A stretch of 64,000 nt of DNA from Planctomycetia bacterium (GCA_021414115.1 JAIOPD010000071.1:1-64000), one strand, 5' to 3'. Shown: positions 43,773-62,993, counted from the first letter of the stretch. Numbers and translations are program-made. Notes: generated by a model not told the origin, from the sequence alone.

Positions 43773-44495
43773 ATGACGACGTTCGAGCCGCTGACCACCG
43801 CAACTCTCTCGGGTGGCAATGCGTTGCGATGGCCGACGCGTCGTGACTGGGTTTACGCCGCGCTCAGCTTGCTCACGCTCGCGGCGATACCCTCGGCCGC
43901 ATCGGCTGCGGAGCGAACCTGGATTGGCACCGGCAATGTTTCGGCTTGGGCTACAGGCTCTTACTGGGCAGGCAGTACGGTTCCGACGAACAGCGACGTT
44001 GCCGTGTTCGACGGGCCGGGAACTGCTATCTCAAGGGGACTCAACTTCACGAACCCGTCCAGCGGCGTGGGCACACCCTACTCGATCCAGGCAATCGTCG
44101 TATCGGGTTCACAGCGTTCGATCACGATCGGCAGCAGTGCAACGGCACCCGGAATCCTTCGCCTGACAGGCGCGACGATCAACTCCGTCGATAACGTGAT
44201 CCTGCGATACCGTGACAGGTGCGAGCCGCATGCTCACGCTCTCGGGCTCGGGCTCCGGCGGCCTCACGCTTTCTGCCGCCAACACCTACACCGGCACCAC
44301 GCGGCTCTCCGCCGGCACGCTGCGGGCCGGCAACGACGCGGCGTTCAGCACCAGCCTCCTCCTCCTCAACGGTGGCACGATCACCTCCGACGGGGCGACG
44401 GCCCGGTCGTTGGCCAACGCCACGACGTTCGGGGGCAACGTCGCATTCGGCGATGCCATCGGTTCGGGAGCTCTCACCTTCGGCGGGGCCGTTGA
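43773..44495 (+). CDS. 5' part of the frameshifted autotransporter-repeat/prepilin fusion gene
   Basis: The ATG at 43773 after GAGGTGGACA gives an N-terminal export region ([21 protein letters not shown]) and the opening strands of a beta-repeat passenger ([30 protein letters not shown]). Coding homology continues only to about 44207 ([10 protein letters not shown]). After that the frame becomes a meaningless shadow, while frame +1 carries on with the repeats ([16 protein letters not shown]). A one-base loss, or a sequencing error, near 44205-44208 explains it. It should be read together with 44212-50769 as one gene. Confidence 0.7.
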
Positions 44496-47400
44496 TCTGG
44501 GCGGTGCCACGCGCACGCTCACGACCGCCGCATCGACCACGTTCACAGGCGCCGTCAGCAACGGCAGCCTCACGAAATCCGGCACCGCCACGCTCGCGCT
44601 CACGAATGCCGCGAACAGTTTCGCCACGCTCACGATCACCGCCGGCACCGTCTCGATCGGCGCCTCCACCGCGGTCACCGGCCTCGCCGGCTCGGCGGGA
44701 GGCCTCAACCTCTCTGCCGGCACGTTCACGGTCAATGCCGCGGCCGACCAGACGTTCGGCCAGTCGATCACCGGCCCTGGCGGCCTCACGAAGTCGGGGG
44801 CCGCGGCGCTCGTCCTCTCGGCCGCCAACTCCGGCTACAGCGGCACGACGACGCTCACCGCCGGCGTCCTCCGCGGCGGCCACGACGCCGCCTTCGGCAC
44901 CGGCACCCTCGCGCTTGCCGGTGGCACGATCACCGGGACGGGCGCATCGGCCCGCTCGTTCGCCAATGGTGTCGTGATGGGGGGCGACGTGGCCTTCGGC
45001 GACGGCACGGGCGCCGGCCCACTCGCCTTCGGCGCGGTCAACCTCGGCGGCGCGACGCGGTCGCTGACGACCGTCGTCTCGACCACGTTCTCGGGCGCTG
45101 TCACCAACGGCAACCTCACGAAGCTCGGCACCGCCCCGCTCGCGCTCACGAGTTCCGGCAACAGCTTCGGCACGCTCACCGTCACCACGGGCACCGTCTC
45201 CATCGGTGCAAACACGACGGTCACCGGCCTCGCCGGCTCCTCGGGCGGGCTCAACCTCTCCGCCGGCACGCTCACCGTGAACCAGGCCACCAACGGCACC
45301 GTCGCCCTGCCTTTCAGCGGCTCCGGCGGCTTCACGAAGACCGGAACTGGCGGCCTCACGCTCACTGCCAATAGCGCTGGCTTCGTCGGTACGACGACCG
45401 TCGCCGCCGGCACGCTCGCGGTCGACAGCGTCCTCGGCGGGTCTGTCTCCGTGTCGAACGGCGGCACGCTCGCCGGCTCGGGCAGCGTCGGCTCGGTGTC
45501 GATCACGACCGGCGCCACGCTTTCCCCCGGCTCGAGCCCCGGCATACTCACCACCGGCGCCATGAGCTGGGCCGGGGGGGGCAACTACAACTGGCAACTC
45601 CTCAACGCCACCACCGGCGCAGGCACGGGCTGGGACCTCGTCGCCGGCGGAGTCCTCACGATCACGGCGAGTTCGACGAACCGCTTCAACGTCAACCTCT
45701 GGTCGCTCTCGTCGATCAACCCCGACGTGAGCGGCACCGCGCAATCCTTCTCGGTCACGACCAGCGGCACCTACACGATCGGCACGTTTTCGAGCATCGC
45801 TGGAGCCACCGGCGACTGGTACACGATCAACACCGGCCCCACCAACGGCACCGGCGGCTTCGCCGATTACAAGCCCGCGCTCGGCGGCTTCACGCTCGTC
45901 TCCACCGGCACGAGCCTCGATCTCGTCTACACGCACACACCGCTGACTTCCTATTCCTATGTCGGCGGCACGGGCAACTGGAGCGACACGGCCAACTGGT
46001 CGCTGGGGGACAGCCCCGAGGGCAATGCGGCCATCACGTTCGACGGCGCTGGGGGCGTTGCCACCAACACCCTCGTCTCGGGCACCGGCCAAAACGAGCT
46101 CACGAGTGTGACGGCCCTCACGTTCGGCGGCTCGGCGGGCGGCTACACGATCGCGGGCAACCCACTGACGCTCGGCGCCGGCGGGATCACGAACGACTCG
46201 GGCGTCGCTCAGACCATCTCGGCCAACGTCGCGCTCGGGGTTCCGGCGACGTTTACGGCCAACACGGCAGGCCTCGCGCTCTCCGGCACGGTCGACACCG
46301 CGGGCAATCCGCTCTCCATCGCCGGCGCCGCCGCCACGACGCTCGGCGTGGTGAGCGGCAGCGGCAGCCTGACGAAGGCTGGCTCCGGCACGGCCACGCT
46401 GACCGGCGCGGTGGCCGCACCGAATATCTCGATCGCTGCGGGCGGGGTCGTGCTCGGCGGCCCGAATATCCTCGCCGACTCCGGCACGGTCACCGTCGGC
46501 GGCGGCACGCTCGATCTCCAAACCAACTCCGACACGGTGGCCAGCTTCTCGATCACCGCCGGATCGCTGATCGGCTCGGGCACGCTCACCGCGGCCACCT
46601 ACGCGCTCGGCGGCGGAACGGTGAGCGGCAACCTCGGCCCCGGTGCCGCCACGGCCACGTCGGGCTCCACGTCGCTGGCAGGCGCGCTGGCGGGCAATCT
46701 CGCCGTGGCCGGCGGCGCGGTCGTGCTGAGCGCCTCCGACCGCATCGCGGATGGCTCGGCAGTGACCATCTCCTCCGGCTCGCTCGGCTTAAGCTCGTTC
46801 AATGACACGGTCGGCTCGTTTACGATCACAGGCGGTGTTCTCGGCGGCTCGGGCACACTGACCGCAGCCACGTATGCACTCGGCGGCGGCACGATCTCGG
46901 CCAATCTCGGCGTGGGGGCAGCCACGTCCACGTCGGGCTCGACCGGCCTCGGCGGCACGCTCGCAGGCAACCTCACCGTGGCCGGCGGCGTGGTGGGGCT
47001 GAGCGCCTCCGACCGCATCGCCGCCGGCTCGGCCGTGACCGTCTCGTCCGGCTCGCTCGGCCTGAGCTCGTTCAATGACACCGTCAGCTCGTTCACGATC
47101 ACGGGCGGTGTTCTCGGCGGCTCGGGCACGCTCACCGCTGCCACGTATTCACTCGGCGGCGGCACGATCTCGGCCAACCTCGGCGCGGGGGTAGTCACGG
47201 CCACGTCGGGCTCGACCGCGCTCGGCGGCATGCTCGCAGGGAATCTCACAGTCGCTGGCGGCGTGGTCGCACTCGGCGCTGCGGATCGCATCGGCAATGC
47301 GTCAGCCGTCGAGGTCTCCTCCGGCACGTTGGGCCTGAGTTCGTTCAGCGACACCGTCGGTTCGTTCACGATCTCAGGCGGCGTGCTCGGGGGCTCGGGC

Positions 47401-50400
47401 ACACTTACCGCGGCGACGTATGCACTCGGCGGCGGCACCGTGAGCGGTAACCTCGGCGCGGGCGCCGCGACCGCGCCGGCAGGATCTACCGCGCTCAACG
47501 GAACCCTCGCGGGCAACCTCACCATTGCCGGTGGCGGAGTCACGCTCGGTTCGGCAGGCCGGCTGGCGGCTGGCTCGGCCGTGGCCCTGACGACCGGCAG
47601 CCTCGTGCTTGGCGGCAACGAAACCGTGGGCACCTACGCCCAGTCGGGCGGCACACTCGGCGGCTCGGCCACGCTCACCGCCGGAACCTACGCCCTCACC
47701 GGCGGTACGGTGAATGCCAACCTCGGCGCCGGCACGCTCACCGCCGCCAGTGGCGCCACGACCATCGTTGGCACCGTCGGCGCCGGAACGGTTTCGATCA
47801 GCGGCGGCACGCTCGCCCTTGGCTCCGCCGGCCGGCTCGCGGGCTCGGCGTCCGTGACGATGACCGCAGGCGGCCTCACGCTCGGCGGCAATGAGTCGGT
47901 GGCTGCCTACTCTCAGTCGGGCGGCACGCTCGGCGGCTCCGGCACGCTCACGGCGTCGAGCTACTCGATCTCCGGCGGCGTGGTCAGCGTCGCGCTCGGC
48001 TCGGGCACGGTGACGATGTCGGGGGGCAGCCTGATCGGCACCTCAGGGAAGACGATCGCCAACGCGATCGTGATCGGTACCGGATCGGGCATCGCGGCCA
48101 CGACCTTCAGTGGTTATTGGAACTTCACGACCAACGCATCCGTCGCCACGGTCACCGGCTCCGGAGTGGCATTCGGAGACGTGACCACGAGTGGCTCGGT
48201 GTCGACGCTCAACACGTCCTCCACGAGCAGCGGCTACACGCTCGCCAGCGGCGGCACCGCGAGTGGGGGCAACAGTGTCGAGATCAGGGCTCCCGCCGGT
48301 GCTCTCTCCGGCTCGAGCGCCTACCTCGGATTTTCGACGACCGGAACAACCGACGCGACCTATCTGGTGAATGCCGTGCAGTTTGGCTCGCGGTCGACCG
48401 GCACGGGCCCGCAGTCACTCGTGCTGCAGTCGAGTGCGGACAGTTACGGCTCGAACCTCGCAACTGCCTCTCCCGGGGCGACTTCTGCCTGGGCCGCATT
48501 CAACCTCGCGCCCACCGGCACGACCGCCAGCGGCGTCGTGAACTACCGGCTCTATGGCGTGAGCGGAACCGGGAGCGGGGGAGGCAACTGGCGGATCGAC
48601 GACCTGTATGTCTCTGGCACGGCATACACGCCCATCGTGCAGTCCGGCTCCGGAACGCTCGGCATCGACCAGCCCGGATCGGTGACCTATAGCGGCCCCG
48701 TCGTCGTCAATAACAGAGCCACGCTCACCGCGGTCGCCGGTGGCACAGCCACGTTCTCCGGTGCGATCAGCGGCTCGGCCGGGTCGATCACGAAGACCGG
48801 CGCAGGCACCGTGCGGCTCACTGGCTCCAACTCCTTTGCAGGCGGCATGACCGTGAGCCAGGGCACGCTTGTGGCCACGACCGATAGCCTCAAGGGCAGC
48901 ATCGTCAACGCCGGCGCGGTCGTCTTCGACCAGGCGACGAGCGGCACCTACGCGAGCCTGATGAGCGGCACAGGCAGCTTCATCAAAGCGGGCAATGGCA
49001 CGGTCTCGCTCACCGGCCTTCAGACGTTCACCGGCCCCACGACCGTCGCCGCGGGCGCTCTCGCTCTCTCCGGCAGCGGCGGCCTGACGAGCCCATGGAT
49101 CGCCGTCGGCGATGCGGGCCTGCTCGATGCGACGGCCCTCGCCGAAGGCCTGCGGCTCGGGTCGGGCCAGACGCTCGCGGGCACGGGCACGGTCGCAGGC
49201 TTGGTCGTCGTCGGCAGCGGCGCCACGGTCGCTCCCGGCAACAGCCCCGGCATGCTCGAGGTCGGCATGATGGAGTTTGCCGGCGGCGGCAACTTCAACT
49301 GGCAGATCTCCGACATCGCCGGCGGCGCCGGCACGGGCTACGATCTGTTGTCGGGCACCGGCGGCCTTTCCATCACGGCCACCGCGGAATCGCGATTCTC
49401 CATCAATCTCTGGTCGCTGTCGGGGATCGGCCCCGACATCAATGGTTTGCTGGCGGGCTTCGATCCGGCGGTGAACTATGCCTTCAAGTTCGCCGACTTC
49501 GCCGGTGGCATCACCGGCTTTGACTCCCAGAAGTTTGCCGTGAACACGGCCGGCACCAATGGCACCGGCGGCTTCCAAAACACGCTCAACGGCTCGTTCT
49601 CGGTCGCCCTTGGCACGTCGGTGGAGGGCGGCAACGCCGACCAGCTGTACGTCGTCTACGTGGTCGTGCCCGAACCCGCCGCTCTTGTCTTGGCCAGCCT
49701 CGGCTTGGCTGCGGCAGGTTGGGCCACTCGCCGGCGACGGTCAGCCGGCCGCGGCGGCTTCAGTCTCGTCGAGCTGTTGGTCGTGATCGCGATCATCGCC
49801 GTCCTCATGGGATTATTGTTCCCCGCGATTCAGCAAGCGCGCGAAGCCGCCCGCCGGACGCAGTGCCTCAACAATGTGCGGCAGATCGGGATCGCCATGC
49901 TCGGATTCGAATCGGCCAACGGGTTCTACGCGCCGGCCAATTCCACCGGAGCGGAAGCGATGTGGCCACCAAGCAATCCCAAGGAGCACGGCATGTTCGC
50001 GCTCCTTCTGCCCTACCTGGAGCAGGGCTCGATGTTCACGACGCTCGGTTACGATTACGACCAGAACTGGGACGCGTCGGTCAACCGACCCGCTGCCGAG
50101 ACGATCATCCCGGCGTTCGTCTGCAGCAGTACCCCAGACGGCGCGCGGAAGGTCACCAAGGCTCGGTATCCGACCAATACCTACCAGTCTTGGGCGCCGG
50201 CCTGCAACGATTACGCGACGATCGTGGAGGCAAAGCCTGCCCTCTACACGGCCTTGGGATCGACGGCCCCTGTGGAGAAACAACGATTGGGCATGCTGCC
50301 GACGAACAAACGCACGACCGCAGCGCATGTCCGCGACGGCTTGAGCAACACGCTGGCGCTCGTGGAATGTGGCAATCGACCGATCCGGGTCTTTAATGGC

Positions 50401-50769
50401 CGAACCATGGGCGTGCGCAGCGCACTCGCAACCTCTCCATGCGACAGGAATAACGACAGCATGGCAGCCGCGTGGGCCGACAATGGAGTCACGTTCCCTC
50501 TTAAGGGTTCAGACGCCGCGACCGGCGTGCCAAACTCCTTCTGCTACCACACCGATGCCACCGGCCGTGTGCCGCCGTCGGGCACGACCACCGGCGGCAG
50601 GTGCGTCATGAACTGCACGAACTGGGACGAGCCCTACTCGTACCATCCCGGCGGCATCAATGTCGTCTTCGGCGACGGGAGCTCGCGGTTCCTCAACGAG
50701 ACCATCGATCCCCTCACGATGATCGCGCTCGTCACCCGCATGGGCGGCGAGATCACGGGTGATTTTTAG
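44212..50769 (+). CDS. autotransporter-type beta-repeat protein with PEP-CTERM signal fused to DUF1559 prepilin
   Basis: 2185 codons in this frame; the true start is probably 43773, across the frameshift. Residues 1 to about 1800 are Gly/Ser/Thr-rich autotransporter-associated strands ([15 protein letters not shown] type), including tandem 91-aa units. Then comes a PEP-CTERM signal: [20 protein letters not shown] and RRRR. Ten residues later a class III-type prepilin signal begins, [20 protein letters not shown], followed by a DUF1559 (SBP_bac_10) pilin domain ending [16 protein letters not shown]. The two membrane helices would form a hairpin with a cytoplasmic basic loop, so prepilin peptidase could cut between the halves. 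Either a polyprotein or a gene fusion; see findings. Confidence 0.85.
46558..48010 (+). repeat. tandem 273-bp coding repeats inside the passenger domain
   Basis: Unit starts fall at 46558, 46831, 47104, 47377, 47647 and 47920, spaced 273, 273, 273, 270 and 273 bp. Each encodes a 90-91 aa module beginning [15 protein letters not shown]. The first four units are closely similar, the last two diverged and the sixth incomplete. Low substitution between units 2 and 3 suggests recent duplication or homogenisation. Confidence 0.85.
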
Positions 50770-51270: not shown

Positions 51271-52230
51271 CTAGCTCTGCCGGTCGATGACGTGGCAGTG
51301 GGCGAGGACCTGTTCGGGCGTGCTCACGTAGCCCGTGTAGAACGGTCCAAACTCGGCGTAGCGGGCGCTCGCCTCGTCGAATCGCATCGTGTAGACGATC
51401 TCCTTGAGCCAGTCGGGACGTCGGGCCCAGAGCGTCACGCCCCACTCCCAGTCGTCGAGTCCGACCGACACCGTGATGAGTTGCGTCACCCGGCCGCCAA
51501 ACTTCATGCCGGAGGCCCCGTGCTCGGCCATCAGCCGGCTCCGCTCCGCCCACGGCAGCGTGAACCAGTTTTCGCCGACCTTCCGCTTCTTGTTCATGGG
51601 ATAGAAGCAGACGTTCGGCCACGGCGGGAGTTCCGGCTCGAGCCGTGCCTGCCGCATGGCGGGCTCGCGGGCCTCATAGCCCTGCACCTTCGCCCGATAC
51701 GACGGGCTGTCGGCCACCTCTCCCTCGGCGATCAGCCGCGCGGCGTATTGCTCGACCGTGGGCACATACTCGCTCACCTCGGTGAGGCTCACGAAGGAAT
51801 AGGTGGGAACGAGCGCCGTTCCCAGTGGACCGACGAGCAGCCGCTGGTGCACGTCATCGACCTTGAGCGGATCCGGATCCATCGCCATCACGCCGAAGTC
51901 GGCCTTGTGTCCGGGCACGATCCAGGTCTGCAGCCGCGTCGGCGCTTGCAGCCCGGCCGGGTCGAGTGCCGCGGCGAACTGCCGGATTCCCTCGGCCCGA
52001 GCCGCTGGCGTCAGGCCGGCCAGCCGCTGCCGGTCGAAGGCGTAAAAGAGATGGCTGCAATGCCACCCGGTGCAGGGCTGAATCGCGGTTTCGACCGCCG
52101 CATGCGCGGCCCCGTGGGAGGCGTGCCCCCCGCGTGCGGGTGCGGTGGCTGGCTGGGCGGCGGGTTGTGTCACCTGGTGGGCTCCGGAAGGTGCGGTCGC
52201 GGATCGTGGCTCGGAGTCTACGCTGCGCAC
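51271..52230 (-). CDS. hemQ: coproheme decarboxylase / chlorite-dismutase family heme protein HemQ
   Basis: About 319 aa. It catalyses the last step of the coproporphyrin-dependent heme pathway, decarboxylating coproheme to heme b. The family core is intact: FYPMNKKRKVGENWFTLPW (YPM-x-K holds the catalytic Tyr), MAEHGASGMKFGGRVTQL with the heme-ligand His, GLDDWEWGVTLWA and RYAEFGPFYTGYV. A His/Ala-rich N-terminal extension of about 50 residues is unusual. The GTG at 52230 is preferred because the longest frame (52338) would run to within 15 bp of the divergent WXG100-like gene; the true start is uncertain. Confidence 0.87.
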   Translation of the reverse strand: MRSVDSEPRSATAPSGAHQVTQPAAQPATAPARGGHASHGAAHAAVETAIQPCTGWHCSHLFYAFDRQRLAGLTPAARAEGIRQFAAALDPAGLQAPTRLQTWIVPGHKADFGVMAMDPDPLKVDDVHQRLLVGPLGTALVPTYSFVSLTEVSEYVPTVEQYAARLIAEGEVADSPSYRAKVQGYEAREPAMRQARLEPELPPWPNVCFYPMNKKRKVGENWFTLPWAERSRLMAEHGASGMKFGGRVTQLITVSVGLDDWEWGVTLWARRPDWLKEIVYTMRFDEASARYAEFGPFYTGYVSTPEQVLAHCHVIDRQS

Positions 52231-52352: not shown

Positions 52353-52625
52353 ATGGGACAGGCAATCGTCGATCCGGCCGAGCTTCGCCGCTTCGCGGGC
52401 AGCCTGCGGAAGTTCAGCGAGGAGGTCGTGGCCCAAATGCAGATGGTGCAGCGGCAACTCGCCGCGTTGAGCGCCACGTGGCGCGATCAGGAACAGCAGA
52501 AGTTCGCGGAGGAGTTCGAGGCGCAGTTGGGCACGTTCAAGCGGTTCGCCGAATCGACGGGCGAGTACGTGCCCTACCTGATCCGCAAGGCCGAGCGGGT
52601 CGAGGAGTATCTCCAGCAGCGCTGA
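52353..52625 (+). CDS. WXG100-like small secreted protein (W-x-D type), T7SS operon
   Basis: 90 aa, helix-turn-helix. Helix 1 is DPAELRRFAGSLRKFSEEV. The turn reads ATWRDQEQQKF, so the usual W-x-G is W-R-D (W43-D45). Helix 2 continues to the end (FKRFAESTGEYVPYLIRKAE). Size, the central Trp turn and the neighbouring FtsK/EccC ATPase place it in the ESX/type VII substrate superfamily. Such proteins are exported without signal peptides, often as dimers. AGGGGAACCGCATC precedes the ATG. It is the first gene of a four-gene operon divergent from hemQ. Confidence 0.75.
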   Translation: MGQAIVDPAELRRFAGSLRKFSEEVVAQMQMVQRQLAALSATWRDQEQQKFAEEFEAQLGTFKRFAESTGEYVPYLIRKAERVEEYLQQR

Positions 52626-52711
52626 CGGCCCGCCGGGCACGAACAGCCGTCGCCGCACTCGCGTGCGCGAGCGGCGGTGACCCACGAATGGCGAGCAGGG
52701 AGAGGATGCCG

Positions 52712-53311
52712 ATGTCCACACAGGCAGACGTCAAATCGATCGACACGCTGGCCTTCATGAAGGCCGCGTTCGGCGTGTTTGGCCACGACAGTGGCCAGGC
52801 CCTCTCGGAGGTCGAGATCCAGGGACAGCGGGCCGTCGAGTGGATCACGGTCGATCAGGCCGCCCACTGGAAGGCCGAGATCCGCAAGGCAAACGAGCTC
52901 GTCAACAAGGCGCTCAAAGACCTCGAATACTGCCGCGCCTTCAAGAAGGTGGGCAACAACCAGCCCTCGTGCATCGAGGAAAAGAAGGCACTCGAAAAAG
53001 CCAAGCAGCGGCTGGCGCGGGCCGAGCAGAAGGCCGAGGCCGTGCGTCGCTGGACGCCGATCGTGCAGCAGCAGTTTCGCGAGACCTGCGTGCGGCTGGT
53101 GCGGTTTCGCGAGGTGATCGACGTCGACTGCCCGCGGGCCATGGCGCAACTCGAGAAGATGCTCAAGGCGCTCGATGCCTACCGCCAGGTGTCGTCACCC
53201 ACCGGGGGCACCGACGGCGCCGGCTCTTCAGGTGGCCAGAGCGTCACCCGGCAGCTCGACGATTCCCGGCCCGCGGCACCGGCCGACGGCCAGACCGGAG
53301 CGGCGTCATGA
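52712..53311 (+). CDS. coiled-coil protein of the T7SS-like operon, function unknown
   Basis: 199 aa. A helical N-terminal half (IDTLAFMKAAFGVF, HWKAEIRKANELVNKALKDL) is followed by a strongly charged coiled coil (EEKKALEKAKQRLARAEQK) and a helix with three prolines or fewer before a Gly/Ser/Pro tail. There is no signal peptide or membrane helix. The start MSTQADVK at 52712 has GAGAGG six bases upstream. It is co-translated with the next gene (ATGA at 53308-53311). It could be a chaperone, a substrate or a scaffold. I know no family for it. Confidence 0.7.
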   Translation: MSTQADVKSIDTLAFMKAAFGVFGHDSGQALSEVEIQGQRAVEWITVDQAAHWKAEIRKANELVNKALKDLEYCRAFKKVGNNQPSCIEEKKALEKAKQRLARAEQKAEAVRRWTPIVQQQFRETCVRLVRFREVIDVDCPRAMAQLEKMLKALDAYRQVSSPTGGTDGAGSSGGQSVTRQLDDSRPAAPADGQTGAAS

Positions 53312-53544
53312 GGGTCGGCGATCTCTCCAGCGGCGCGTCGAAACTGGCCAACGCGCTCAAGCAACTCAACCTCAAATGGGAGGTCGCCGGCGAAGGCTGG
53401 CACGACGTCCGCGCGAAAGCTTTTCAGAAGGACAGCATTGAACCGCTCACGCCGAGCGTCAAGGAGACGCTTGACGCGCTGGGCCGGCTCGCCGAGGTGC
53501 TCGACCGGGCGATCCGCGACGTGAGCGACTCCGACGGCATGTAG
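53308..53544 (+). CDS. second WXG100-like small protein (W-x-D type)
   Basis: 78 aa. Helix 1 is SSGASKLANALKQLNLKWEVA, the turn EGWHDVRAKAFQKD (W31-H-D33), helix 2 SVKETLDALGRLAEVLDRAI. The length and the W-x-D....F pattern are the same as in the gene at 52353, so the two may form a heterodimer like the EsxA/EsxB pairs. The start overlaps the upstream stop (ATGA). The ATPase gene begins 40 bp downstream. Confidence 0.65.
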   Translation: MRVGDLSSGASKLANALKQLNLKWEVAGEGWHDVRAKAFQKDSIEPLTPSVKETLDALGRLAEVLDRAIRDVSDSDGM

Positions 53545-53584
53545 CCGCCGCCATTCCGCACCGCCTCCGAGGAAGATCCCCGCA

Positions 53585-56500
53585 GTGAGCACGACGCCCT
53601 CCGAACCAGCGGCCGCGACCCCTTCGGTCTACGACCGCACTCTCCTTCGCAGTCAGATCGATATCCTCCGCCGCGAGGCGGCGACGCGTGCGCGTCTCGA
53701 AAACGAGATCCACGAGGAGCACGAGACACGGGTCGCCGCAGCCCGACGGAAGTCTGAGACCAGCCTCGCGGCGACGCACGAGAAATACGCGGGTGAGATC
53801 GAGGCCACCAAGCGGGAATACGCAGCCGTCCTCCAGAAGGCCGCCGCCTACCTCGCCGCCGAGCAGAAGAAGCTCGACGACCAGCGGGCGGCGATGGTCA
53901 AGAAGATCGGTCGCGATTCCGACACGCTGGTACAGCAGACGAAGGAGGAGGATCAGTTCGAGGAGGGCTCCTTCCGGGAGGTCTTCAAGGAAAAAAAGAA
54001 AGATCCGCTGCGACTGTTCGCCAAGGGGGAGAAGGATCTCGCTCGCTCGGTCGCGCAGATCGACGAATCGACCACCAGGGTCAACTCGTTCCTGGAGGGC
54101 AAGCGGGTCGCGACCGTGGCGATCGACGCATCCGCTCCGGCTGAAGCTCCGGAAGGCGATCTACTCCAGGCCTTCGACCAGGTTCGGACCGCGGTCGACG
54201 ACCAGGCGAAGGCAATCCTCGGACTCCCGGCTGCCAAGACCGCCTTTGGCGGCGGACTGCAGGCGGCGGCGATCGCCCTGCCCCTCCTGCTCGGGACCGC
54301 GGCGGCTGCGGCGACGTTTTTTCTGCTGCCGGGCGAACTCGGCCTCAAGGCTGGCGCGGCCGGTGCCGCGGCTGCGATCCTCGCGGGTGGTGGCATCGGC
54401 GGCGGCTTCTGGACCATCGGCAGCATGCGGTCGCGGGTCCGAACGCAACTCGGTGACATGGCAACGGAGTTCGCCGCGAATGCCACCCGGGCCGCGGGAC
54501 TGAAGCAGCCATGCCTCGCCTTTCTGGCGACCCGCCGCGACCAGCAAGCGGCGAAGCTCGAGGAACGGTTCAAGCAGGAGTCGGAGCAGCGGGCGATCCA
54601 GTCGGAGGCGAAGCGGGCCGCGATTCTCGCCAAGCGCGACAAGTCGCTCGCCGACCTCGAGGTCAAATACAAAGCCACGACCGAGGCGATCGCCGCCAAG
54701 GTGGCGGCGGCGCGGGATGCCGCGGAGAAGAAATATCCACCCCGGCTCGCGGCCCTCGAAACAAGCCGCCGCGAAGACATCGAGCGCATCGAGCGGGAGC
54801 GGGACGACAGCCTGGCGGCAGCCGACGCGCAGCAACGCGACCGCCACGCGGCGATGACCGCGCAATGGCGTGCGGCCCGCGAGCAGACCGCGGCCACCTT
54901 CGACGAGGCCAACCGGATCGACACGACAGCCTTCCGCACGTGGGACGATCTGGCCCGCGACGACGTGCCTCTGCCGATCGAGCCGCCACCCGGGCTGCGC
55001 TTCGGAAGCGTCGGTCTCACGCTCGAGAAGCTCCCCGGAGGCGTGTCGAGCGATCCGGCGCTCAATGCTTTCGGGCCGATCTCCTGGACGCAGCCGGCGA
55101 TCCTCTCGTGGCCCGTCGAGTCATCCCTGCTCATCAAGACGTCGCCCGAGGAGAAGGAGACGTCGTCCGCGATGATGCAGGCGCTGATGCTGCGGATCGC
55201 CTCCGGCATCCCCGCCGGCCAGAGCCGGTTCACGATCATCGATCCGCTCGGTCTCGGCAAGCAGTTCGCCGGCTTCATGCACCTCGCCGACTACGACGAA
55301 CTGCTCGTCACCAGCCGCATCTGGACGGAGCCGCAGCTCGTCGAGCAGCGGCTCGCCGACATCACCGAACAGATGGAGGTGGTGATCCAGAAATACCTCC
55401 GCAACGAGTATGAATCGATCGGCGCCTACAACGCCGACGCCGAGGTGCCGGAGCCGTATCGCTTCGTCGTGGTCGCCAACTTCCCGGCCAACTTCAACGA
55501 GACGAGTGCGCGACGGCTGGCGAGCATCGCCTCGTCGGGGGCCCGCTGCGGCGTCTACGTGATCCTCTCGATCGATCCGACCCAGCAGATGCCGGCGGGA
55601 TTCAGCCTCGCCGACATCGAGCAGCAGTGCACCACGCTCGTTCTCAAGAACGGCGTCTACACCTGGAAAGACGCCGAGTATTCCAAGTGGCCGCTGACGG
55701 TGGAGCAGGCCCCGTCCGACGAGGTGTTCACGCGGATCATCCAACGGGTCGGCAAGGCCGCCAAATCGGCCAAGCGGGTGATCGTGCCATTCGACCGAGT
55801 GGCGCCCGCGGAAGACCAGTGGTGGAAGGGGAGCACGGCCGAGGAGGTGCTCGCGCCCCTCGGACCCGCCGGCGCCAAGAAGCTCCAGTTTCTCAAACTG
55901 GGCAAGGGCACCAGCCAGCACTGCCTGATCGCCGGCAAGACGGGTTCGGGCAAGTCGACGCTCATGCACGCGATGATCACGAGTCTCGCGCTGCAATACA
56001 GCCCGAATGAGATCCAGTTCTACCTCATCGACTTCAAGAAGGGCGTCGAGTTCAAACTCTACGACCACTACGCGCTGCCGCACGCGCGGGTGATCGCCAT
56101 CGAGAGCGAGCGGGAGTTCGGCCTCTCGGTGATGGAGCAGCTCGACCGCGAGCTCAAGCGCCGCGGCGACCTGTTTCGAGAGCTCTCGGTGCAGAACGTC
56201 GCCGGCTTCCGCCAGACGGGCCATCCCGATCCGATGCCGCGGATTCTGCTGATCATCGACGAGTTTCAGGAAATCTTCGTCGAGGACGACAAGATCGCCC
56301 AAGACGCGTCGCTGATTCTCGACCGCCTCGTCCGCCAGGGGCGTGCCTTCGGCATCCACGTGCTCCTCGGATCGCAGACACTCGGCGGCTCCTACAGCCT
56401 GCCGCGGGCCACGATGGGGCAGATGGCCGTCCGCATCGCGCTGCAGTGCAACGAGGCCGATTCGAGCCTGATCCTCTCCGAAGACAACACCGCGGCACGG

Positions 56501-57754
56501 CTCCTCACCCGGCCTGGCGAGGCGATCTACAACGACGCCAACGGCATGGTCGAGGGCAACAACCCATTCCAGGTCGTGTTCCTCACCGACGAGCAGCGGG
56601 AACAGTTTCTCGGATCGCTCCGCAAACTCGCCGACCGGCGGACCGACATCCCGCACCTCGAGAGGATCGTGTTCGACGGCAACCAGGCCGCCGACCCGGC
56701 GGGCAACCTGCTGCTCACGGAGCTTCTCGCCTCCGGCACCGTCCACGGGGCCGAGCTCGTCGCGCCACTGGCATGGATGGGCGACGCGATCGCCATCAAG
56801 GATCCAACCGCGGCCATCTTCCGTCGTCAGGGGGGCGCCAACATGCTGATCGTGGGCCAGCGGGAGGACCTGGGGGCTTCCCTCCTGGCGATCTCGCTGG
56901 TGAGCCTCGCCGCGGGCCTCGACCCGCACCCGGGTGGAGCCTTGGGCCGGCCGGGCCGGTTCGTGCTCCTGGAGCCGGCGATCGCGGAAGAGCGGCCCGA
57001 TATCCTGCTGTCGCAGCTTGCCGGCCATCTGCCGCACGAGATCGAGGTGGTGGGCCGGTTCGGCGTGGCCGACGCCTGCGAGCGGCTCGCCATGGAGGTG
57101 AAGCGGCGGCTCGACGAGCAGGTGCAGGACGGCGAGGCGGTGTTCGTGATCGTCCGCGACCTCGGCCGGTTTCGCGAGCTTCGCAAGAGCGACGGTGACT
57201 TCGGCTTCTCGCTCGGCGACAAGAAGGCCGGCCCTGCCGACAACTTCCTCACGGTGCTCAAGGATGGTCCGTCGGTCGGCATCCACATGATCATCTGGTG
57301 CGACTCGCTCACGAACCTGCAGCGGACGTTCGACAGAAATGCCGTCAAGGAGTTCGAGTTGCGGGTGCTCTTCCAGATGAGCGGCAACGACTCGAGCCAG
57401 CTGGTCGACAGCCCTGTGGCCGCGAAGCTCGGCCCGCAGCGGGCGCTCTTCATCCACGAGGAAACGGGCACGCTCGAAAAGTTCCGCCCCTACTCGTTCC
57501 CGACCACGGAGTGGCTCGACACGGTGGCCGCGGAGATGCGGAAGCGGCCGCAGGGCACGCCCGTGGAGCGGCCTGCGGCGCGAGCGGCGTCGGCAGCGGC
57601 CGAACCGACGGCCGCGGGCGATGGTGGAGGCGGCATGGGCGGGTTCACTGCGTTTGGCGGCGGCGGCGAGTTCAACTTCTCGAAGATGCTCGACGACCTG
57701 CCCGGTGGCGATGCCGCCGCCCCCGACGGCGAACCCGGCGGGCCACCCGCGTAG
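53585..57754 (+). CDS. FtsK/SpoIIIE (EccC-like) secretion ATPase
   Basis: 1389 aa from GTG after CGAGGAAG. Layout: coiled coil (about 20-130), two membrane helices (about 222-279, AAAIALPLLLGTAAAAATFFL and a Gly/Ala helix), second coiled coil (about 300-430), then three FtsK-like modules. Module 1 has no usable P-loop (IKTSPEEKETSS). Module 2 is intact: Walker A GKTGSGKST with Lys790, Walker B RILLIIDEFQE, sensor LLGSQTL. Module 3 is degenerate (VGQREDLGAS, AVFVIVRDL). Membrane-anchored, three-module FtsK plus neighbouring WXG100-like genes matches EccC of type VII secretion. No EccB, EccD or mycosin gene is present here. The C-terminus is Gly/Pro-rich. Confidence 0.9.
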   Translation: MSTTPSEPAAATPSVYDRTLLRSQIDILRREAATRARLENEIHEEHETRVAAARRKSETSLAATHEKYAGEIEATKREYAAVLQKAAAYLAAEQKKLDDQRAAMVKKIGRDSDTLVQQTKEEDQFEEGSFREVFKEKKKDPLRLFAKGEKDLARSVAQIDESTTRVNSFLEGKRVATVAIDASAPAEAPEGDLLQAFDQVRTAVDDQAKAILGLPAAKTAFGGGLQAAAIALPLLLGTAAAAATFFLLPGELGLKAGAAGAAAAILAGGGIGGGFWTIGSMRSRVRTQLGDMATEFAANATRAAGLKQPCLAFLATRRDQQAAKLEERFKQESEQRAIQSEAKRAAILAKRDKSLADLEVKYKATTEAIAAKVAAARDAAEKKYPPRLAALETSRREDIERIERERDDSLAAADAQQRDRHAAMTAQWRAAREQTAATFDEANRIDTTAFRTWDDLARDDVPLPIEPPPGLRFGSVGLTLEKLPGGVSSDPALNAFGPISWTQPAILSWPVESSLLIKTSPEEKETSSAMMQALMLRIASGIPAGQSRFTIIDPLGLGKQFAGFMHLADYDELLVTSRIWTEPQLVEQRLADITEQMEVVIQKYLRNEYESIGAYNADAEVPEPYRFVVVANFPANFNETSARRLASIASSGARCGVYVILSIDPTQQMPAGFSLADIEQQCTTLVLKNGVYTWKDAEYSKWPLTVEQAPSDEVFTRIIQRVGKAAKSAKRVIVPFDRVAPAEDQWWKGSTAEEVLAPLGPAGAKKLQFLKLGKGTSQHCLIAGKTGSGKSTLMHAMITSLALQYSPNEIQFYLIDFKKGVEFKLYDHYALPHARVIAIESEREFGLSVMEQLDRELKRRGDLFRELSVQNVAGFRQTGHPDPMPRILLIIDEFQEIFVEDDKIAQDASLILDRLVRQGRAFGIHVLLGSQTLGGSYSLPRATMGQMAVRIALQCNEADSSLILSEDNTAARLLTRPGEAIYNDANGMVEGNNPFQVVFLTDEQREQFLGSLRKLADRRTDIPHLERIVFDGNQAADPAGNLLLTELLASGTVHGAELVAPLAWMGDAIAIKDPTAAIFRRQGGANMLIVGQREDLGASLLAISLVSLAAGLDPHPGGALGRPGRFVLLEPAIAEERPDILLSQLAGHLPHEIEVVGRFGVADACERLAMEVKRRLDEQVQDGEAVFVIVRDLGRFRELRKSDGDFGFSLGDKKAGPADNFLTVLKDGPSVGIHMIIWCDSLTNLQRTFDRNAVKEFELRVLFQMSGNDSSQLVDSPVAAKLGPQRALFIHEETGTLEKFRPYSFPTTEWLDTVAAEMRKRPQGTPVERPAARAASAAAEPTAAGDGGGGMGGFTAFGGGGEFNFSKMLDDLPGGDAAAPDGEPGGPPA

Positions 57755-57839: not shown

Positions 57840-58949
57840 CTACCGTGGTCGACGGCCGACCTGCACGGCGACCGTCTGCGGCTTTCCGTCACGGACGATT
57901 TCGAGTTCCACCGTCGCGCCGATCGGTGCCCGGGTGAGTTGGAGCACGAGCCCCGCCGGTTCGGCGACGGACTCGCCGTCGAACGACACGACGACGTCGC
58001 CGCGGCGGATGCCGGCAAGCGCCGCGGGCGACTGCGGCTCCACCGCGTCGACGAGCACACCATACACACTCGGCCCCGATGACCGCAGGGCCATGCCGAG
58101 ATAGCCCCGCTCCACATAACCGCTCTCGAGGATCGCACGGCTCACCTGCCGCGCGGCATTGCTCGGGATTGCGAAGCCGATGCCGCTGTAATCCTTGCCC
58201 ACGATGGCCGTGGTGATGCCGACCACGCGGCCATGCACGTCCACGAGCGGGCCACCCGAGTTGCCCGGATTGATCGAGGCATCGGTCTGGAGAAACTCCT
58301 GGTAGGGGCTGTCGACCACTCCGCGTCGCCCCACGGCACTCACGATTCCGTACGTGAGCGTGCGGTCGAGTCCGAACGGATTGCCGATCGCCCACACCAT
58401 TTCTCCCACCTCGATCGAGTCGCTGTCGCCCCAGGTGGCCGCCGGCAGTTCGCGGGCGTCGATCCGCAGCACGGCCAGATCGGTCGCGGGATCGGCGCCG
58501 AGCAAGTCGGCAGTAAAGCGGCGGCCATCGGAGAGCGTCACGTCGATCTGGTCGCTGTTGGCCACCACGTGATAGTTGGTGACGATCACGCCATCGGATT
58601 CGACGATTACCCCCGACCCCACCTCCTCGTCGGTCACGCCGACGGGCGACAGTCCACGGAGAGCTGCGATCTCGTCGGCGACCGTCACCAGCCGCCGCTT
58701 CGACGTGACGTTGACGACCGACGGGCCGATCAACCGGGCAAGCGTCGTGAAGAGCTTGCCCACCGCCGTCAGTTCGGCCCCGGCGGCCGCGTCGCGGATC
58801 GCGGCGATCTCGGCCCTTGTCCGTGCGTAGTGCATTCGGCCGACGAACGAGGGCCAAGCAATCAGCCCCACGAGCGCCATCAGCCCCGCGAAGAGGAAGA
58901 GCGTCCGGCGGGAGGCCGCCTGGCGACGTGTGTCGGGGATGTCGCTCAT
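57840..58949 (-). CDS. membrane-anchored HtrA/DegP-type serine protease with PDZ domain
   Basis: 369 aa. An N-terminal anchor (TLFLFAGLMALVGLIAWPSF) precedes a trypsin-like domain with His in VIVTNYHVVAN, Asp in ATDLAVLRID and Ser in INPGNSGGPLV, and a C-terminal PDZ domain (GYLGMALR through LAGIRRGDVVVSFDG). It degrades or processes misfolded envelope proteins. It is co-translated with the upstream cinA-like gene (ATGA at 58946-58949) and convergent with the T7SS ATPase gene, which is probably coincidental. Confidence 0.92.
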   Translation of the reverse strand: MSDIPDTRRQAASRRTLFLFAGLMALVGLIAWPSFVGRMHYARTRAEIAAIRDAAAGAELTAVGKLFTTLARLIGPSVVNVTSKRRLVTVADEIAALRGLSPVGVTDEEVGSGVIVESDGVIVTNYHVVANSDQIDVTLSDGRRFTADLLGADPATDLAVLRIDARELPAATWGDSDSIEVGEMVWAIGNPFGLDRTLTYGIVSAVGRRGVVDSPYQEFLQTDASINPGNSGGPLVDVHGRVVGITTAIVGKDYSGIGFAIPSNAARQVSRAILESGYVERGYLGMALRSSGPSVYGVLVDAVEPQSPAALAGIRRGDVVVSFDGESVAEPAGLVLQLTRAPIGATVELEIVRDGKPQTVAVQVGRRPR

Positions 58950-60154
58950 GCGAGCGGTTCCTGGCCGGCCCGACCGGCCGCATGGAGGCGGACGAGATTC
59001 AAGGCCGTCTTCGCCGCCCTGGAGGCAGCCAGGTCGGGGCCGCCGCCGAGCACGTGCTCGGTCACGGTCGTGCCGTTGGCCGCGGCGATTGCGATGTCGA
59101 CCGCCTGCCGGCCGTCCGCCGCCGGCCGGACGGCCCCCACGCCGAGCCCCACGGCGGCGGCAAACTCGCTTCGCGCCCGCTCGGCAAGTGCTCGCGGATC
59201 GACCTGGTCGACCTGCGACAAGACGAGGCCGCCCCGGAAGGCCCCGGCGGTCGCTCGCCGCGCGGCCGCCTGCGCCAAGAGCGTCGCGACCCGGCCCGCC
59301 GTCCCGATCTCGACGCTCGCGACCGAGCCTCCGGTCGCGGCGACCGCCGTCAGCGTCGCATCCTCGACCTCGTCGTCTTCGACTCCATATACGATCGCGC
59401 CGAGGCACTCACGGATCGTCGCTGCGGTGGGCGCGATCTTCGCCAGGCAGTCGGCCTCGTCACGGCCGCGGGCGGCGATCCGCAGTGTGATCGTGGCCTC
59501 GTGGGCGGTGATCCCGACGAGTGGATCACGGCCGCGGCGGACGAGGTCGGGAAGCATCGACTCGACGGCGCTCTCGCCCGCTCCAAAGCATTTGATCCGC
59601 CGCTGCACGATCGTGGCCCGACCCGGCATCATGCCGAGCAGCGCCGGCTCCACGGTGCCGCTCCACATCGTCTTCATTTCCGACGGCACGCCCGGCAGGG
59701 CGAAGACCCGACATCGGCCGCCGGCGCGATCGAGATCGATGTCGATGCCGGGCGCGGTGCCGTCGGGATTGGGGATGATCCGGCTGCCGCGGGGAAAGAG
59801 CGCCTGCCGCCGGTTCGACTCCGGCATCGCCGCGCCGCGACGCGCGAACCGCGATTCCACGGTCGCGAGCGCCTCCTCCGAGAGGTCGAGCGGCACCCCC
59901 GCCACCGCCGCCAACACATCCCGCGTCAGATCGTCGGCCGTGGGGCCGAGGCCGCCGGTCACCATCACGACGTCGGCCCGGCCGGCGGCGAGCCGAAACG
60001 CCTCGATCCCCGCCTCCAGCGTGTCGGGCACCGTGGTGTGGAACGTCACGGGGATCCCGAGCACGCCCAGTTCGGCCGCCATCCAGCGACTGTTGGTGTC
60101 GAGCCGCTGGCCGGAGGTGAGTTCGTCACCGATGGCGATCACTTCGGCGTGCAT
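58946..60154 (-). CDS. cinA: CinA-like protein with decayed C-terminal amidase domain
   Basis: 402 aa. The N-terminal MoaB/MogA-like CinA domain is clear: VIAIGDELTSGQRLDTNS, VVMVTGGLGPTADDLTRDVLA, FALPGVPSEMKTMW, with the KCFGAGES segment after it. The C-terminal NMN-deamidase (PncC) domain is recognisable but has lost its active site. The family AESCTGG reads VEIGTAG, so the nucleophile Ser is Ile, and the YSN-x-x-K region reads LSQVDQ. The pyrophosphatase half could still work. Deamidation is unlikely. Confidence 0.88.
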   Translation of the reverse strand: MHAEVIAIGDELTSGQRLDTNSRWMAAELGVLGIPVTFHTTVPDTLEAGIEAFRLAAGRADVVMVTGGLGPTADDLTRDVLAAVAGVPLDLSEEALATVESRFARRGAAMPESNRRQALFPRGSRIIPNPDGTAPGIDIDLDRAGGRCRVFALPGVPSEMKTMWSGTVEPALLGMMPGRATIVQRRIKCFGAGESAVESMLPDLVRRGRDPLVGITAHEATITLRIAARGRDEADCLAKIAPTAATIRECLGAIVYGVEDDEVEDATLTAVAATGGSVASVEIGTAGRVATLLAQAAARRATAGAFRGGLVLSQVDQVDPRALAERARSEFAAAVGLGVGAVRPAADGRQAVDIAIAAANGTTVTEHVLGGGPDLAASRAAKTALNLVRLHAAGRAGQEPLA

Positions 60155-61682: not shown

Positions 61683-62993
61683 ATGCGGTGTCCGACGGCA
61701 TTCCTGCCGCTGGTTCTGTTCGCGGTCGCCGCGTTCGCAGGCCCCTCCGCCGAGGCCGAATCCCGCCGCACGGCCATCGTGCAGGCCATCGAGTCGCAGC
61801 GTGACTCGGTCGTCAACATCCATGGCCAGAAGATCGTGGGGGGTGATGCCGGCGACGAGAGCCAACTCCGCCGCGTCAATGGGATGGGCACGGGTGTCGT
61901 CGTCGACCCGCGTGGCTACGTGGTGACCAACTACCACGTCGTGGAAGGCGTGCGACGGATCGAAGTCACGCTCGCCTCGGGGAAGACAACCTCGGCCACG
62001 CTCGTGTCGCACGACCCACGGACCGACCTCGCCGTCATCAGGCTCGAAACCGACGACTGCCTGCCGGTTGCGGCCATCGGCACGTCTGCCGACCTCATGA
62101 TCGGCGAGACGGTGCTCGCCCTCGGCAACGCCTACGGCTACGAGCACACCGTCACCCGCGGAATCATCTCGGCACTGCACCGCAACGTGGAGGTCAGCCG
62201 CACCCAGCGGTACGAAGACCTCATCCAGACCGATGCCAGCATCAACCCCGGCAACTCCGGCGGCCCGTTGCTCAACATCAACGGCGAAGTGATCGGCATC
62301 AACGTGGCGGTCCGGGCCGGTGCCCAGGGCATCGGCTTCGCGATTCCGATCGACCGGGTGCTCGACGTGGTCTCGCGGCTGCTCTCGGCCGAACGGATCG
62401 ACCACACCTGGCATGGACTCGTCGTCCGCGGAGACGGCGAGCGGGGCGCCGTGGTGGAGGCGGTCCATCGCGAGAGCCCTGCCGAGAGGCTCGGCATGCG
62501 AGCGGGCGACCTGATCACGCAGATCGACGATGTCACCGTGTCGCATCAACTCGACGTCGAGCGGGCGATGCTCGGACGCAAGGTGGGCGAGAGCGTGGCC
62601 GTGACCGTCGTCAGAGCGGGTGCCTCCGAGCGGTTCGACCTCCCGCTGGCGGAGGTCCGCCGCGACGTCGAGTCGCTCGACGACCGCTGCTGGGCCGAGA
62701 TCGGGCTGCGGCTCCAGCTCGTATCCCCCGCCAAGGTTCAGAAGCTCCAAGCCCGCTATCGTGGCGGGATGCTCGTGACCGCCGTCCGCGACGGCGGCCC
62801 GGCGAGCGAGCAGGGCATTCAGGAGGGCGACATCCTCGTCGGACTCCATGTCTGGGAGACGATCGCCCCGGAGAACGTCGCCTACATCCTCGACAAGGCG
62901 GTCGAGGAGCACCTCAACCCGATCAAGTTCTACGTGCTCCGCGGCCGCGAGACGCTCTTCGGCCACATCGTGTCCGACACGGTCCGCCGCTGA
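61683..62993 (+). CDS. periplasmic HtrA-like trypsin/PDZ protease
   Basis: 436 aa. Signal peptide FLPLVLFAVAAFAGPSAEA. Trypsin domain with His in YVVTNYHVVEG, Asp in RTDLAVIRLE and Ser in INPGNSGGPLLN. Two PDZ-like segments (ERLGMRAGDLITQIDD; EQGIQEGDILVGLHVW) follow. GGGGAGAGAAACCTGC precedes the ATG at 61683. It is a second, independent HtrA paralogue, differing from 58949 in being soluble and in having a second PDZ. It is a single gene on the plus strand between the Gfo/Idh-like gene and thiL. Confidence 0.9.
   Translation: MRCPTAFLPLVLFAVAAFAGPSAEAESRRTAIVQAIESQRDSVVNIHGQKIVGGDAGDESQLRRVNGMGTGVVVDPRGYVVTNYHVVEGVRRIEVTLASGKTTSATLVSHDPRTDLAVIRLETDDCLPVAAIGTSADLMIGETVLALGNAYGYEHTVTRGIISALHRNVEVSRTQRYEDLIQTDASINPGNSGGPLLNINGEVIGINVAVRAGAQGIGFAIPIDRVLDVVSRLLSAERIDHTWHGLVVRGDGERGAVVEAVHRESPAERLGMRAGDLITQIDDVTVSHQLDVERAMLGRKVGESVAVTVVRAGASERFDLPLAEVRRDVESLDDRCWAEIGLRLQLVSPAKVQKLQARYRGGMLVTAVRDGGPASEQGIQEGDILVGLHVWETIAPENVAYILDKAVEEHLNPIKFYVLRGRETLFGHIVSDTVRR

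Follow-up and report, generated by a model that had tools for sequence, protein, structure and literature searches.

Computational analysis of a 64,000-nucleotide stretch from a Planctomycetia bacterium (GCA_021414115.1, JAIOPD010000071.1:1-64000; the whole stretch is called the window below) reveals at positions 52353-57754 a compact operon of four plus-strand genes. They encode, in order, a small protein of the WXG100 family (WXD-A), a coiled-coil protein (CC), a second small protein (WXD-B) and a three-module ATPase of the FtsK superfamily. The operon is not a canonical EccC system. We lean, with moderate confidence, towards reading it as a domesticated, minimal exporter of helical hairpins akin to the type VII secretion system (T7SS).

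The order A-CC-B-ATPase recurs across the order and the phylum, down to about 38% ATPase identity, and is therefore not a product of chance; the conservation in planctomycetes that the first-pass annotation of this DNA proposed to test is borne out. The order is exact in 58 of 80 named loci, most of the others being split or cut by contig ends. Bearers of the complete set include a cultured, non-pathogenic species, Aeoliella straminimaris (locus L173). Among 244 Planctomycetota genomes, the ATPase (E <= 1e-25) and WXD-A (E <= 1e-5) are found in the same 36, and CC and WXD-B in the same 35 of those, which leaves one genome with WXD-A and ATPase and 208 with none of the four. With kinship ignored, Fisher's exact test of this co-occurrence returns 6e-44 when genomes are counted and 1e-33 when genera are. 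Because the training members of the profiles came from these same genomes, strongly diverged copies could escape in those scored as lacking the genes. The exception (genome G085, locus L110, 7542-14066; 40% GC) encodes WXD-A, a separate two-helix membrane protein of 119 amino acids (aa), an ATPase of about 1000 aa and a 983-aa HEAT-repeat protein, without CC or WXD-B.

CC and WXD-A are present at one copy per genome in every genome scanned. In one family (f18) the genes are often unlinked, with single copies of all four retained; the single-contig genome G131 carries the ATPase, WXD-A, WXD-B and CC near 0.23, 0.71, 1.94 and 2.66 Mb, respectively. Orphan ATPases of this family were considered as instances of small-gene loss, an explanation rejected on genome-wide searches that placed the small genes at other sites. 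The persistence of all four as single copies after the operon has broken up is strong evidence that they work together, and argues against calling the planctomycete versions 'mobile'. The traits of a mobile cassette are lacking here: the genes are single-copy, their neighbours are conserved at the genus level and the set is retained when scattered. Viral contigs yielded no relative by the WXD-A profile, the ATPase profile or the ATPase of a Helicobacter plasmid introduced below. The planctomycete operon looks neither mobile nor armed.

WXD-A scores 32.7 bits against Pfam WXG100 (PF06013), above the curated cut-off of 27.3, and the family is matched by all 34 of its orthologues. The best match of the WXD-A profile in the PDB is HP0062 of Helicobacter pylori (3fx7, E 1.7e-12), and EsxB/EsxA structures of Bacillus, Staphylococcus and Streptococcus are matched at 8.8e-9 to 5e-4. 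The length of WXD-A is invariant, and its C-terminus reads RKAE..EYLxQR. WXD-B matches both WXG100 (18 bits, below the cut-off) and EsxA (0.0023) weakly; it is homologous to WXD-A, the profile of each picking up members of the other. The Trp-x-Asp turn and shared spacing described in the first-pass annotation are present as W-x-D-x5-F in both proteins (W43/D45/F51 in WXD-A, W31/D33/F39 in WXD-B), and W-x-D is invariant in 34/34 WXD-A and 33/33 WXD-B orthologues. None of these proteins has W-x-G, and the YxxxD/E export motif occurs in the last 35 residues of none (0/34 and 0/33). The two 'helix-turn-helix' proteins of the earlier description are helical hairpins of the WXG100 kind and do not belong to the DNA-binding helix-turn-helix class.

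The AlphaFold2 model of CC (mean predicted local distance difference test score, pLDDT, 85.5) is a hairpin of two antiparallel helices of about 72 residues each (8-78 and 88-161), followed by a disordered and variable C-terminal tail. Among 32 orthologues W44 and W114 are near-invariant and Y157 is invariant. A fold search returned generic long helices only, with nothing at E <= 0.001; a likeness to a chain of the LXG/Lap complex (rank 44, E 0.24) was discarded as not meaningful. Pfam detects no toxin domain in the CC of the window or in 32 planctomycete CC proteins, and no match in CC to an LXG domain with a C-terminal toxin, the tail being merely disordered. In some Phycisphaerales an Imm33-like C-terminal domain (PF24719) is fused to CC, at 1.2e-10 and 2.7e-6. 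Such fusions are seen at L181:1188-2222 and L198:8322-9509 and also at L166 and L169, two of them above the Pfam cut-off.

Outside the phylum, five plasmid records match the three-module region over all or most of its length: two from Rhodococcus and one each from Deinococcus, Caballeronia and a cat Helicobacter. Searches with the Caballeronia and Helicobacter ATPases as queries return these five and no other plasmid at 1e-20 or better. On the Helicobacter plasmid the order is WXD-A, a helical protein of 340 aa with a WHH nuclease at its C-terminal end (PF14414, 1.1e-11; colicin DNase, 9.8e-9), a SUKH immunity protein (PF09346, above cut-off), a 77-aa helical protein and an ATPase of the same clade. 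The nuclease and immunity genes stand in the position of CC, which suggests that CC occupies a cargo slot and is a candidate cargo or targeting hairpin. The Caballeronia plasmid encodes a WXG100 protein, a 436-aa helical protein, proteins of 113 and 76 aa and the ATPase, adjoining genes for CARF, VWA, PP2C, kinase and AAA proteins, and the Rhodococcus relative sits with TerD. The A proteins of Caballeronia, Helicobacter, Rhodococcus and Deinococcus, which all have W-x-D, are picked up by profiles of planctomycete WXD-A; the small proteins in the B slot of Helicobacter and Caballeronia are not recognised by the planctomycete profiles.

The ATPase had been described as having one intact and two degenerate P-loop modules, and the intact one proves to be in the middle (GKTGSGKS, residues 784-791, with K790 as the Walker A lysine, and Walker B D892-E893). 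Pfam FtsK_SpoIIIE scores 106 bits. The best NCBIfam families are EccCa, EssC and EccCb, none of which comes near its equivalog cut-off (TIGR03924, 113 bits with 509 needed; TIGR03928, 108 with 778 needed; TIGR03925, 104 with 347 needed). An AlphaFold2 model of residues 470-1335 (mean pLDDT 86.7) has Thermomonospora EccC (4nh0) as its best whole-length Foldseek match (892 columns, E 5.1e-34). The middle module alone aligns with FtsK motors at Z 32 and with EccC fragments at 27-29; since it fits FtsK equally or better, it is the tandem architecture rather than this module that points to EccC. Foldseek aligns the modules in order with EccC D1-D3 (chain range 447-1315), but the degenerate-intact-degenerate pattern would also fit DUF-D1-D2.

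In the tree of the middle module the planctomycete ATPases share one clade (96/92) with their plasmid relatives, separate from both EccC/EssC and FtsK/SspH, although several branches are long and the tree does not settle the deeper order or exact placement. The profile of this module scores 170-300 bits in plasmid relatives, 78-97 in EccC/EssC and 61 in the chromosomal FtsK of the same genome (G000:C54). That of module 1 scores 39-116 bits in plasmid and faecal relatives and about none in EccC/EssC; that of module 3 reaches 105 bits in such relatives, is weak in the Helicobacter plasmid protein and does not find EccC/EssC. On the tree and the NCBIfam cut-offs we reject an EccC orthologue, and the designation 'EccC-type' is not supported in the strict sense. 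Nor does the ATPase group with chromosomal FtsK, from which its clade is separate; FtsK is encoded elsewhere in the genome. The middle module also matches PADLOC SspH at 95 bits, and on this ground two proteins of 1780-1794 aa with a C-terminal FtsK-like domain, L270 (genome G022) and L271 (G032), may be SspH-type defence proteins.

N-terminal to the modules, a hydrophobic hairpin sits between long charged helical stretches. Of 106 complete orthologues, 96 have two hydrophobic segments with a short loop (median 11 residues) between them. The shortness of this loop speaks against the earlier proposal that the coiled coils span the periplasm; both helical stretches should instead lie on the cytoplasmic side, with the ATPase, and could pair into a stalk. 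Nine of the ten hairpin-less orthologues are close to that of the window, and in the tenth (L109) the N-terminus is either out of frame or wrongly started. Inspected hairpin-less sequences carry a short non-hydrophobic stretch in place of the hairpin, with conserved flanks; the replacement is clean in the ATPases of L043, L047, L051, L127, L129, L142 and L144.

This kind of operon, WXG plus middle-active ATPase, is already briefly in print, if barely described. A 2012 footnote names planctomycetes among the bearers of stand-alone operons of WXG100 and a YueA/EssC-like ATPase with the middle of three FtsK/HerA modules active, and calls these operons mobile (PMC3482391, Table 1 footnote 6). Bell et al. 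2024 report an ATPase of this sort from CoCoNuT loci, accompanied by two WXG100 proteins and a nuclease-fused coiled coil, in a version without transmembrane segments, and cite Anantharaman 2012 for the stand-alone forms (PMC11090510). Common to these operons and ours are a central module that alone is active, two WXG100-like proteins, a coiled-coil protein and a long N-terminal helical region; the window ATPase and other members of the class also share modules 1 and 3 besides module 2. In the published accounts the stand-alone operons are called mobile and, where details are given, occur with nucleases and defence genes, have solo WXG domains and lack transmembrane segments, whereas the planctomycete operon is vertically inherited and has two W-x-D proteins, a toxin-free CC and a hairpin in most ATPases, its genes being sometimes scattered and never lost singly. 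Among open-licence literature we found no paper on the planctomycete operon, the W-x-D pair, the co-occurrence or the lack of a toxin.

The relation to type VII secretion that the first-pass annotation had drawn stands, given the WXG100 score of WXD-A, the Esx structures matched by its profile, the A-B homology and EccC as the best whole-length fold match. The small proteins did not fall among unrelated domains of unknown function (DUFs), the ATPase did not prove to be of SpoIIIE/FtsK type and homologous operons did not lack the small genes. The epithet 'reduced' is not supported: nothing indicates reduction from a larger T7SS, and the operon belongs to the separate stand-alone lineage of WXG100 and middle-active ATPase (PMC3482391, PMC11090510). 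YukD/EsaB/EccD (PF08817) has no match in the same genome or in relatives of the genus, while a B. subtilis control matched. One YukD-family match over the cut-off (50.9 bits) lies at G029:C1:1770757-1770966, in a relative of the order and apart from the operon. EccB (PF05108) matched none of 24 genomes, yet the control genomes were silent too and this result is not used. EccE, mycosin, EssA, EssB and EsaA were not noticed beside the operon, genome-wide searches for these families not having been made.

The systems T7SSa-j are described from Actinomycetota and Bacillota only (PMC11217815, a 2024 survey). T7SSa/ESX, T7SSb/Ess and T7SSc-j combine, as here, a WXG100-family hairpin with a multi-module ATPase of the FtsK superfamily that in most cases bears a membrane hairpin; the planctomycete operon departs from them in W-x-D, in the lack of YxxxD/E, in that YukD was not found, in the middle position of the intact module and in its separate ATPase clade. 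HP0062 (PDB 3fx7, 2gts; PMC3397514), the closest solved structure to WXD-A, is likewise a W-R-D hairpin whose gene clusters with an FtsK/SpoIIIE-domain gene and an HNH/EndoVII nuclease gene; both papers mention the WxG/FtsK cluster of Helicobacter, and an HNH/EndoVII nuclease within a WXG100 secretion cluster (PMC3397514, PMC4978471). It differs in being epsilonproteobacterial, with nuclease cargo, and is not known to be secreted. LXG toxins with their Lap/WXG partners, delivered by the T7SS, also pair a long N-terminal helical hairpin with small helical proteins encoded alongside, but CC has neither a toxin domain nor a significant sequence or fold match to LXG.

What could such a set of proteins do? 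In the reading that we favour, the four genes would together encode a single minimal export machine of the type VII kind, passed on vertically within Planctomycetota. Its motor would be the ATPase, assumed hexameric by analogy with FtsK/EssC, its middle module hydrolysing ATP and the outer two regulating or binding substrate, and in most species the membrane hairpin on its long cytoplasmic coiled-coil stalk would tie it to the inner membrane. WXD-A and WXD-B might form a hairpin dimer that recognises the cargo or accompanies it, and CC, as a long helical hairpin, would be the cargo or its scaffold. Because the planctomycete CC carries no toxin and that of the plasmid relatives does, the product probably serves an envelope or surface function rather than acting as a weapon. 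A bolder version, which we offer only tentatively, is that of a phylum-wide, vertically inherited, toxin-free housekeeping exporter domesticated from a toxin-delivery cassette, whose four obligately co-retained parts would export or assemble W-x-D and long-hairpin proteins at the cell envelope and whose motor could work with or without its own membrane anchor.

Several observations weigh against the export reading. Its strongest difficulty, as far as a simple membrane channel is concerned, is the repeated loss of the hairpin, at least three times near the window according to a tree of close relatives, with the operon kept; the Helicobacter and Caballeronia plasmid ATPases have no N-terminal membrane segment either. 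The known T7SS export motifs (WXG, YxxxD/E) are absent from WXD-A and WXD-B orthologues. The equivalence of CC with the plasmid toxin is positional, and its sequence support is statistically weak. To our knowledge, no outer-membrane exit is known for a diderm, and secretion has no experimental demonstration anywhere in the lineage.

The main rival, which we regard as rather unlikely but the most serious of the alternatives, is an intracellular conflict or defence module that secretes nothing. When a phage or plasmid invades, its ATPase would act in the cytoplasm as a translocase or remodeller of CC/WXD complexes, or of nucleic acid, and the planctomycete copy would be a fixed, toxin-less descendant. 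The surroundings of the plasmid relatives (CARF, VWA, PP2C, kinase and AAA in Caballeronia, TerD in Rhodococcus), the presence of this operon kind without transmembrane segments in CoCoNuT restriction loci (PMC11090510), the recurrent hairpin losses and the SspH resemblance of the middle module all agree with it. It fits less well with the retention of the hairpin by most planctomycete ATPases and with the absence of defence partners recurring beside the planctomycete operon outside the genus, and a near-constant WXD-A under single-copy vertical inheritance is unlike arms-race genes.

A true toxin-delivery system with effectors encoded elsewhere in planctomycete genomes would account for the toxin and immunity pair in the CC slot of the Helicobacter plasmid and for the Imm33-like fusions (PF24719) of Phycisphaerales. 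We consider it improbable: with one CC and one WXD-A in each genome scanned, a second, toxin-fused CC is not seen, and no toxin or immunity genes recur at the planctomycete operon. Least credible, and in our judgement very improbable, is a reading in which the ATPase translocates DNA in the manner of FtsK/SpoIIIE to handle the chromosome, and the small proteins regulate it. The better Z of the middle module with FtsK motors speaks for it; the genome, however, encodes a separate chromosomal FtsK, which this module scores far below plasmid relatives and EccC/EssC, the tree parts the two, and the ATPase is absent from most planctomycetes, being confined to 36/244 genomes.

A four-part relative that diderm planctomycetes retain or lose as a whole provides the smallest natural set that could define what a type VII-like motor needs. 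Type VII secretion is described as Gram-positive and mycobacterial, the 2024 survey being limited to those phyla (PMC11217815). The hairpin-less natural orthologues raise directly the question whether a motor of this sort needs to be in the membrane at all. The nuclease cargo of the plasmid, set against the bare hairpin of planctomycetes, points to a path from weapon to housekeeping device that can be tested, in a phylum with a poorly understood envelope biology.

Table. Positions in the window of the four genes and of the segments of the ATPase
Feature	Position	Strand	Description
WXD-A	52353..52625	+	90 aa, WXG100-family helical hairpin, W43-x-D45 turn
CC	52712..53311	+	199 aa, helical hairpin protein
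WXD-B	53308..53544	+	78-aa paralogue-like hairpin, W31-x-D33
ATPase	53585..57754	+	1389 aa; N-terminal helical stretch, membrane hairpin, second helical stretch, three FtsK/EccC-like modules
ATPase membrane hairpin, two-helix, predicted	54272..54418	+	hydropathy; about residues 230-278
ATPase module 1, degenerate P-loop (IKTSPEEKETSS)	55022..55789	+	sequence, alignment
ATPase module 2, intact Walker A (55934-55957) and Walker B	55814..56644	+	invariant in 29 orthologues
ATPase module 3, degenerate P-loop (VGQREDLGAS)	56645..57574	+	sequence, alignment

The start of CC was placed at the ATG at 52712 because its orthologues begin there; the start of WXD-B overlaps the end of CC by 4 bases, and the ATPase begins with GTG, 40 bases 3' of WXD-B. 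The operon had been termed divergent, correctly so, since its left neighbour, a chlorite dismutase family gene (HemQ-like, 51274-52230), is on the opposite strand. To the right lie two trypsin/PDZ (HtrA-like) proteases (57843-58973 and 58949-60154, both minus strand) and CinA (61683-62990, plus strand). All these neighbours are conserved only inside the family of the window, and HtrA and CinA were rejected as parts of the system, as elsewhere they do not stand beside the operon. Further upstream, a single plus-strand frame of 2185 aa (44212-50769) unites autotransporter-type PATR repeats with a PEP-CTERM sorting motif at residues 1819-1842; immediately behind this motif comes an N-methylation motif together with a DUF1559 pseudopilin domain (1847-2167). 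It is unusual for a C-terminal sorting signal to lie in the middle of a protein, and a fusion, read-through or an assembly error are candidate explanations.
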